This document shows, piece after piece, positions 21,122 through 22,097 of a stretch of DNA of 27,488 bases. Origin of the DNA: a virus; IMG/VR virus record IMGVR_UViG_3300025151_000230, positions 1-27,488 of that record, one strand, 5' to 3'. Position numbers and translations under genes: made by a program. The notes under the pieces are model-generated. The model ran no database searches and was not told the origin of the DNA. It was given only the letters and a program-made list of their open reading frames with translations. Each line of letters starts with the position of its first letter. Within the stretch, counting starts at the first letter, position 1.

Positions 21122-22097
21122 GTTCCAGTCTGTCTATGATTTTAAATAGTTGCAGGGCAACTTCAGGGACAATCGCGTTTCCGTAGGCTTTTATTGTTTC
21201 CCGTCTCCACTTTGGAATGGTGATGCCGTCCAATACTTCGGGAATCCCATCATCTCCTCCACAAACAGGGGGGACAGTTGGGAAGTCTTTCCAGTCTCTT
21301 CGCAGGTACGTTTGGTCAGGCTGTCCTGATTTTCCTTGTCCGTTATTTTGTCGTGCTCCTGAGCCATTGGCGTAGGAAGCATCTGACTCTTTGCAAGGTC
21401 GTGCAGTTGCGCACTGAACTCTGTCCCGCCCTTGTTCTGTCTCTTTCCGTTCTCGTTGACTTGCACTGCGCCGCCGCTGATGTTCTTGGCCGTTGGCGTT
21501 GGAAGCATCTTCTGAACCTGCGTAGCAAGGTTGGGCATGGTCGTTCCGTTGGGGTACTTCTCCATTCGTGCCTTGAACTTGTCCAGGTCCATAGGCTCTT
21601 CTCTTGTCGTTGGCGTAAGCAACAACCCAGATTCTATCTCTCCGGTGCGGCGCGTTGACGCTTGCAGCACCAAGTACGACCGGTAAGACTTCGTAGCCTT
21701 CACCTTCCAAGTCAGAGCACACCGTGTCGAGTACCAACCCTTCATTCCAACTAAGCAGGCCACGAACGTTCTCTGCCACGACGTAGGTGGGGCGAGCCTC
21801 TCGAACAATTCGAAACATTTCCGGCCAGAGATACCGATCGTCGGATGTCCCGGTCCGCTTTCCTGCTGCACTAAAGGGTTGACAGGGGAAGCCTCCCGAA
21901 AGGACGGATACACGTCCGCAAAAGTCAGTTGCGTCGAACTCCTTGACATCTTCAAAGCTTTGTGATTCAGGAAAATGGTGATTTAGTACTTGACGGCAAA
22001 ACGGGTCGCGCTCAACATGGAAGACATTCTGCCAACCCATCCATCTTGCGGCAAGGTCGAAACCTCCAATGCCGCTAAAAAGACTGCCATGGGTCAT
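21111..22097 (-). CDS. DNA (cytosine-5) methyltransferase
   Basis: This 328-residue enzyme transfers a methyl group from S-adenosylmethionine to C5 of cytosine. Motif I SLFSGIGGFD (5-14), motif IV GGFPCQPFS with catalytic Cys72, motif VI ENVRG (109-113), motif VIII APHRRDRIWVVA (149-160) and the C-terminal KAYGNAIVP (303-311) are all present. The segment between VIII and the C-terminus (about 161-270), where a target-recognition domain belongs, is polar, low in hydrophobic residues and repeats ANG/AND. It carries a second long reading frame. No restriction enzyme is visible nearby, so it probably protects phage DNA. The ATG at 22097 overlaps the preceding stop; an upstream TTG is possible. 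Confidence 0.93.
   Translation of the reverse strand: MTHGSLFSGIGGFDLAARWMGWQNVFHVERDPFCRQVLNHHFPESQSFEDVKEFDATDFCGRVSVLSGGFPCQPFSAAGKRTGTSDDRYLWPEMFRIVREARPTYVVAENVRGLLSWNEGLVLDTVCSDLEGEGYEVLPVVLGAASVNAPHRRDRIWVVAYANDKRRAYGPGQVQGTNGEVPQRNDHAQPCYAGSEDASNANGQEHQRRRSASQRERKETEQGRDRVQCATARPCKESDASYANGSGARQNNGQGKSGQPDQTYLRRDWKDFPTVPPVCGGDDGIPEVLDGITIPKWRRETIKAYGNAIVPEVALQLFKIIDRLEHGL
21191..21955 (-). CDS. Overprinted LPTP-repeat protein inside the methyltransferase gene (putative)
   Basis: This 254-residue frame is on the same strand as the methyltransferase but shifted by one base. Its start is TTG at 21955, or ATG two codons later (21949). It encodes SGRKCFELF (43-51), CALTWKVKAT (79-88), three repeats LLTPTT, LPTPTA and LPTPMA (112-117, 151-156, 193-198), and FVEEMMGFPKYW (231-242). 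From memory, similar proteins with (L/W)PTPxA repeats and a MMGFP or LMGWP ending recur in phages, often in their own right. The frame covers most of the methyltransferase's polar middle. Whether it is translated is unknown. Confidence 0.5.
   Translation of the reverse strand: MKMSRSSTQLTFADVYPSFREASPVNPLVQQESGPGHPTIGISGRKCFELFERLAPPTSWQRTFVACLVGMKGWYSTRCALTWKVKATKSYRSYLVLQASTRRTGEIESGLLLTPTTREEPMDLDKFKARMEKYPNGTTMPNLATQVQKMLPTPTAKNISGGAVQVNENGKRQNKGGTEFSAQLHDLAKSQMLPTPMAQEHDKITDKENQDSLTKRTCEETGKTSQLSPLFVEEMMGFPKYWTASPFQSGDGKQ

Follow-up and report, generated by a model that had tools for sequence, protein, structure and literature searches.

Does a phage methyltransferase gene hold a second gene within its own coding sequence, and if so, what does this second gene encode? 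The question is raised by an IMG/VR virus record, whose analysed stretch of 27,488 bases is referred to here as the window. A cytosine-5 methyltransferase ORF of the window (21111-22100, minus strand; the alpha gene), adjoined by genes that by appearance look like phage replication genes, contains another long open frame. The first-pass annotation regarded this frame as either part of a widespread overlapping gene system or a conserved shadow of the methyltransferase. Stop avoidance and synonymous constraint bear out the first option, and the function proposed here goes beyond that annotation, which named none: the locus very likely encodes a two-subunit cytosine-5 DNA methyltransferase in a single stretch of DNA, with alpha as the catalytic and cofactor part and the product of the second frame (beta) contributing recognition and motif IX, joined as one enzyme.

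The 254-codon open frame described earlier is indeed present inside the methyltransferase, at 21191-21955 on the minus strand and one base off the frame of 21111-22100. The motif links that had been pointed out between the two frames are likewise found, with VAYAND in the methyltransferase frame corresponding to LLLTPTT in the second frame, NANG to LPTPTA, YANG to LPTPMA and PPVCGGDDGIP to SPLFVEEMMGFP. Beta probably starts at the ATG at 21949, two codons inside the ORF, and not at the TTG at 21955. This ATG occupies the position kept in the nearest relatives, and an ATG near alpha residues 44-62, the region of the beta start, was found in 120 of 124 relatives. For alpha, the ATG at 22097 is the more likely start compared with the TTG at 22100. 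The resulting features are collected in Table 1.

Table 1. Predicted features of the alpha/beta locus, in coordinates of the window.
Feature	Position	Strand	Basis
Alpha subunit, C5-cytosine methyltransferase; carries motifs I-VIII and X but not IX	21111..22097	(-)	PF00145; M.HhaI alignment; motif X RRETIKAYGNAIVPEV read from sequence
Beta subunit gene: N-terminal domain, three LPTP modules and motif IX; nested wholly in alpha, +1 frame	21191..21949	(-)	phrog_1008 (2.6e-19); +1 conservation; synonymous constraint
Beta N-terminal conserved segment SWQRTFVACLVGMKGWYSTRCALTWKVKATKSYRSYLVLQASTRRT, overprinted around alpha motifs VI-VIII	21643..21820, approximate	(-)	Conserved alignment columns; predicted strands
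Three beta LPTP modules (39, 42 and 34 residues), proposed target-recognition modules	21281..21625	(-)	Module pattern; identity higher in beta frame than in alpha frame
Motif IX in beta frame, QLSPLFVEEMMGFPKYWT	21227..21283	(-)	Alignment with in-frame motif IX of single-chain enzymes; PF00145 score
Alpha C-terminus past beta stop, with motif X	21111..21190	(-)	Four-fold mismatch 0.43-0.51, back at unconstrained level

To assemble relatives, a viral collection was scanned with each frame, duplicates were removed and a few phage records were added, giving 132 distinct loci. Beta lies in the +1 frame of alpha in 132/132 of them, and in nearly all it ends about 50-110 bases short of the methyltransferase end. 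Disruption of the second frame in relatives had been named as a check: apart from a single locus of the 132, with an internal stop two codons before the beta end, the frame is unbroken by stops within the beta match. The +1 overlap was also found in 80/80 of the best matches in bacterial and archaeal genomes, mostly Bacteroidota. The probability of an open second frame was estimated by holding the alpha protein fixed, redrawing synonymous codons and scoring the second frame as open or closed. For the window, it stayed open in 1.2% of draws when codons were sampled at the frequencies of the alpha gene itself, and in 0.03% when the frequencies came from the non-overlapping parts. The median over relatives was at most 0.4%, and 27 clusters with less than 60% identity to one another gave a joint probability of about 1e-88; it should be noted that at least one locus returned an uninformative value of 1.0, presumably reflecting a very short tested stretch at a contig edge.

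Position 2 of the beta codons is position 3 of the alpha codons, and silent substitutions in alpha must therefore be slowed if beta is a real gene. Across 1,352 pairs, mismatch at four-fold degenerate sites (four-fold mismatch) is 0.56 for alpha residues 1-45, 0.28 for residues 50-160, 0.095 for residues 161-250, 0.137 for residues 258-284 and 0.51 after the beta stop. In 52 independent pairs, the corresponding profile is 0.394 (residues 1-45), 0.187 (50-160), 0.067 (161-284), 0.066 (285-301) and 0.427 (305-329), with bootstrap intervals inside and outside beta that do not overlap. The strong extra synonymous constraint that the earlier reading had asked about at 21191-21955 is thus present in the methyltransferase frame; it sets in at the beta ATG and ends at the beta stop. 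A conserved shadow without a product would have in its favor the similarity that two frames on the same DNA automatically share. It does not account for synonymous constraint confined to the beta ORF, for the avoidance of stops, for a beta frame better conserved than alpha at residues 161-250, or for the many stops in the +1 frames of ordinary C5-methyltransferases, for example those of Streptococcus phages IPP55 and P0093. As a synonymous drop bounded by beta's own start and stop refutes a shadow ORF, the probability left to this explanation is practically nil. Judged by these patterns of conservation, the second frame is a real gene and both frames are coding.

The two frames do not contribute equally along the overlap. 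Over alpha residues 161-250, identity is 0.61 in the beta frame compared with 0.42 in the alpha frame, and the fastest-changing site is alpha position 1, which corresponds to beta position 3. Given this higher identity and the fast third position, beta is the main coding frame in this segment with alpha as a passenger, which speaks against a recognition domain in the alpha frame there. The polar, low-complexity character that had been noticed in the methyltransferase frame at about residues 161-270 would be explained by the proposed recognition domain in the other frame, and alpha reads across the LPTP modules as a weakly constrained linker. For alpha residues 50-160, the roles are reversed, with alpha as the main frame and both frames constrained.

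This distribution of constraint also bears on programmed +1 frameshifting, by which the second frame would be joined to alpha to yield an alternative alpha with a recognition domain. Natural relatives that switch between fused and +1 arrangements would be in line with such a process. However, constraint in the beta frame begins at the conserved ATG near alpha residue 50, about 110 codons ahead of any useful shift point after motif VIII, and for this reason frameshifting is highly improbable; the shifted product would, moreover, be without motif X.

Very probably, beta provides a split cytosine-5 methyltransferase with its recognition subunit, which includes motif IX and the target domain. Alpha matches PF00145 with 159.8 bits over profile positions 2-227 of 324 and aligns with M.HhaI (phmmer) only over residues 6-166, corresponding to motifs I-VIII. 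Motifs I, IV, VI and VIII are present in alpha, and motif X (KAYGNAIVPEVALQLF) follows after the beta stop. Motif IX, expected after the recognition domain and ahead of motif X, is not found in alpha and is instead located in beta, where LSPLFVEEMMGFPKYW aligns with the in-frame motif IX LTPRECWRLQGFPDWA of ordinary enzymes; the beta C-terminus consists of motif IX (LSPLFVEEMMGFP) followed by a short tail. Composite alpha-beta-alpha readings, made for profile searches only, extended the PF00145 match to full length (profile 2-322) at 179.6 bits. Control scores were 159.8 bits for alpha, 154.9 bits after deletion of the middle part and, for shuffled beta, 158.5 and 162.7 bits; the gain over shuffled controls of about 17-21 bits is moderate and comes in part from alpha motif X. 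The beta recognition segment with motif IX and alpha motif X, taken without motifs I-VIII, scored 22.1 bits, just above the PF00145 cut-off of 22.

The viral protein family phrog_1008, labelled DNA methyltransferase, is matched by all 108 of the 108 beta proteins scanned, including beta of the window (2.6e-19). Beta alone gave no Pfam C5-methyltransferase match at an E-value of 0.1, searches of Pfam, NCBIfam and PADLOC with beta yielded nothing meaningful and a beta profile did not match any solved structure. The AlphaFold model of beta alone is poor (pLDDT 54). Hantavirus nucleocapsid matches in nine beta members (best 0.00077) are weak and located in the variable module region, and were taken as chance. 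In the N-terminal segment of beta, strands are predicted at residues 78-85 and 91-98 with low-to-moderate confidence.

The assignment of beta is supported by mycobacteriophage relatives in which the same elements occur in other arrangements. In one chain and one frame, Mycobacterium phage Philonius gp55 and many relatives combine motifs I-VIII with LPTP modules, motif IX (WMMGWP) and motif X. Millski (gp78/gp77) and Wildflower (gp6/gp5) have the LPTP modules together with motifs IX and X in a neighboring gene of their own, and the two genes of Rahalelujah (gp85/gp84) share 182 bases. A fused locus (L262) and a +1 locus (L273) share 94% identical DNA over the first 677 bases, upstream of the switch; both keep the protein with LPTP modules, motif IX and motif X, and its frame relative to alpha has changed. 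The model of one single-chain relative, L277 (pLDDT 72, pTM 0.75), fits M.HhaI end to end with a Z-score of 21.6 and an rmsd of 3.6 over 249 aligned residues. In single-chain relatives, LPTP modules occupy, in frame, the place expected for a target-recognition domain (after motif VIII and before motif IX), a stretch that is poorly modelled. Given these in-frame fusions, a de novo overprinted protein of unrelated function is unlikely. Genomes carrying the LPTP frame without the methyltransferase had also been suggested as something to look for. None was found among the best 80 genome loci, and beta-like genes that are not nested turned up only in the mycobacteriophages.

A different product is conceivable if beta is a real overlapping gene whose protein acts alone, for example in anti-restriction or regulation, and not as a methyltransferase subunit. 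The beta N-terminal domain is without counterpart in standard C5-methyltransferases and may have another role. Further, the single-chain relatives from mycobacteriophages (L260-L278), whose alpha already includes the recognition region together with motifs IX and X, still have an open and constrained +1 frame. It lies at about alpha residues 114-185, contains the beta N-terminal domain (YSETLPTSGMTRSG...SSSLPTP) as well as some LPTP modules and shows a four-fold mismatch of 0.13 compared with 0.27-0.36. The N-terminal domain may serve a separate function. A protein acting alone is nevertheless improbable for beta as a whole, with LPTP modules, MMGWP and motif X found in frame in single-chain enzymes and, in split pairs, as the second gene, and with motif IX missing from alpha and supplied by beta.

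Several relatives depart from these arrangements. Gordonia phage Baddon gp4 (L255:1492-2562) has motifs IX and X in frame with alpha, and its LPTP-like modules lie in the +1 frame, ending before motif IX. L275:1833-4450 and L276 contain tandem C5-methyltransferase ORFs, with in-frame motifs IX and X in the second only. An HNH-type ORF in another frame is found inside alpha between the positions of motif IX and motif X (L085:3156-3668) and resembles the out-of-frame HNH insert of the phage ShiLan methylase (PMC11855218). In L051 (2240-2719 and 2601-2951), an HNH-like ORF is located ahead of alpha; this alpha has one stop exactly in motif IV (GGFP*PCQP), and beta is intact with 303 codons. An annotated nested methyltransferase in Streptococcus phage P0093 (gene 47, L258:1637-2056) is probably a spurious ORF inside an ordinary single-chain enzyme, as the beta profile scores only 3 bits and alpha has its own motif IX.

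LPTP modules have a median length of 39 residues, and a simple pattern count gives 0-5 per beta protein, mostly 1-4. The 290 modules fall into 97 clusters, several of which occur at differing array positions. Such arrays are reminiscent of the arrayed recognition domains in Bacillus temperate phages (PMC12707154), which makes putative shuffled recognition cassettes a reasonable reading. A more far-reaching proposal, which we put forward tentatively and consider somewhat less than an even bet, is that the overlapped frame encodes an array of interchangeable target-recognition cassettes of about 39 residues, carried on beta as a subunit separate from alpha. Gain, loss and exchange of modules in the second frame would let phages change the specificity of a given alpha, alpha would tolerate its own reading of the same DNA, and small frameshifts would take lineages from one to another of the fused, split and nested forms. 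If true, the specificity of the enzyme evolves in one frame and its catalytic chain is encoded in another.

The nested arrangement is found in Paenibacillus, Xanthomonas, Escherichia (N15, K1H), Salmonella (epsilon15), Edwardsiella and cyanobacterial phages as well. In coliphage K1H, the 'Mte8-like protein' ORF28 is nested in the C-specific methylase ORF29, and genes 54 and 55 of Paenibacillus phage Tadhana are nested in the same way. Database labels for beta range from DNA methyltransferase and Mte8-like protein to hypothetical protein or nothing, and the N15 (gp58) and epsilon15 annotations leave it out. The annotations of phrog_1008 and K1H do not assign a subunit role, and both frames are often labelled DNA methyltransferase. 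The present analysis explains phrog_1008, a large phage family labelled only DNA methyltransferase or left unannotated, and on this reading many phage C5-methyltransferase annotations show only half the enzyme. Recoding an annotated alpha and cloning it by itself would abolish beta and, should the two-subunit model hold, yield a dead enzyme.

In the mechanism that we infer for the two-subunit enzyme, alpha would bind the cofactor and contribute motif X and the loop with the catalytic cysteine. Beta would be translated from its own internal ATG on the same mRNA segment as alpha and supply the recognition region, with LPTP modules recognizing DNA, together with motif IX. The two chains would then assemble, and the resulting enzyme would methylate phage DNA, most likely as protection against host restriction. 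For its origin, we infer an order of steps starting from an ancestral single-chain enzyme, in which a first frame shift would have occurred after motif VIII, ahead of the recognition region, and a second one, back to the original frame, after motif IX and ahead of motif X. The recognition part would then have come to be read from an internal start, with alpha reading the same DNA as a linker to motif X. Fused, split and nested relatives provide a rare natural series for the origin of overlapping genes. Fully nested same-strand pairs with both frames coding over about 250 codons are rare and hard to prove; here, sequence alone makes a clear case, and the overlapping products are apparently halves of one enzyme.

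Nothing on this overlap in phages was found in the literature searched, and the distribution, the modules and the series of fused, split and nested forms appear to be undescribed in the papers covered. C5-methyltransferases made of two polypeptides are known, with M.EaeI being grouped with M.EcoHK31I, and the small subunit of M.EcoHK31I is read from an alternate frame inside the large subunit gene. M.EcoHK31I from E. coli (YGGCCR) consists of a larger polypeptide with motifs I-VIII, motif X and the predicted recognition domain and a smaller one with motif IX (PMC3404938). The window is similar in that motifs I-VIII and X are found in the large subunit and motif IX in the small one, and different in that the recognition domain, there assigned to the large subunit, is apparently located in the small subunit as an array of LPTP modules. 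In M.AquI (CYCGRG), a natural split occurs after motif VIII in the variable region and the second subunit comprises motifs IX and X (PMC3404938). Mycobacterium phages Millski and Wildflower share this layout, with LPTP modules added, and their second subunit carries both motifs. The window is unlike M.AquI as motif X stays in alpha and beta lies wholly inside it. Multispecific C5-methyltransferases of Bacillus temperate phages carry several recognition domains arrayed in one enzyme (PMC12707154), resembling the array of usually 1-4 modules described here, in which similar modules occur at different positions. However, the Bacillus phage enzymes are single chains read in one frame, whereas the array of the window lies in a separate overlapping frame and its multispecificity is putative. 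The system of the window is best seen as a variant of the M.EcoHK31I kind, because it is proposed to work alike but appears to have its recognition region in the small subunit. It differs from M.EcoHK31I in being found in phages, with no restriction partner visible and a spread over many phage groups. What it appears to add, judging from the loci compared, are recognition modules placed in the overlapped frame, cassette-like shuffling of these modules and a wide phage distribution.
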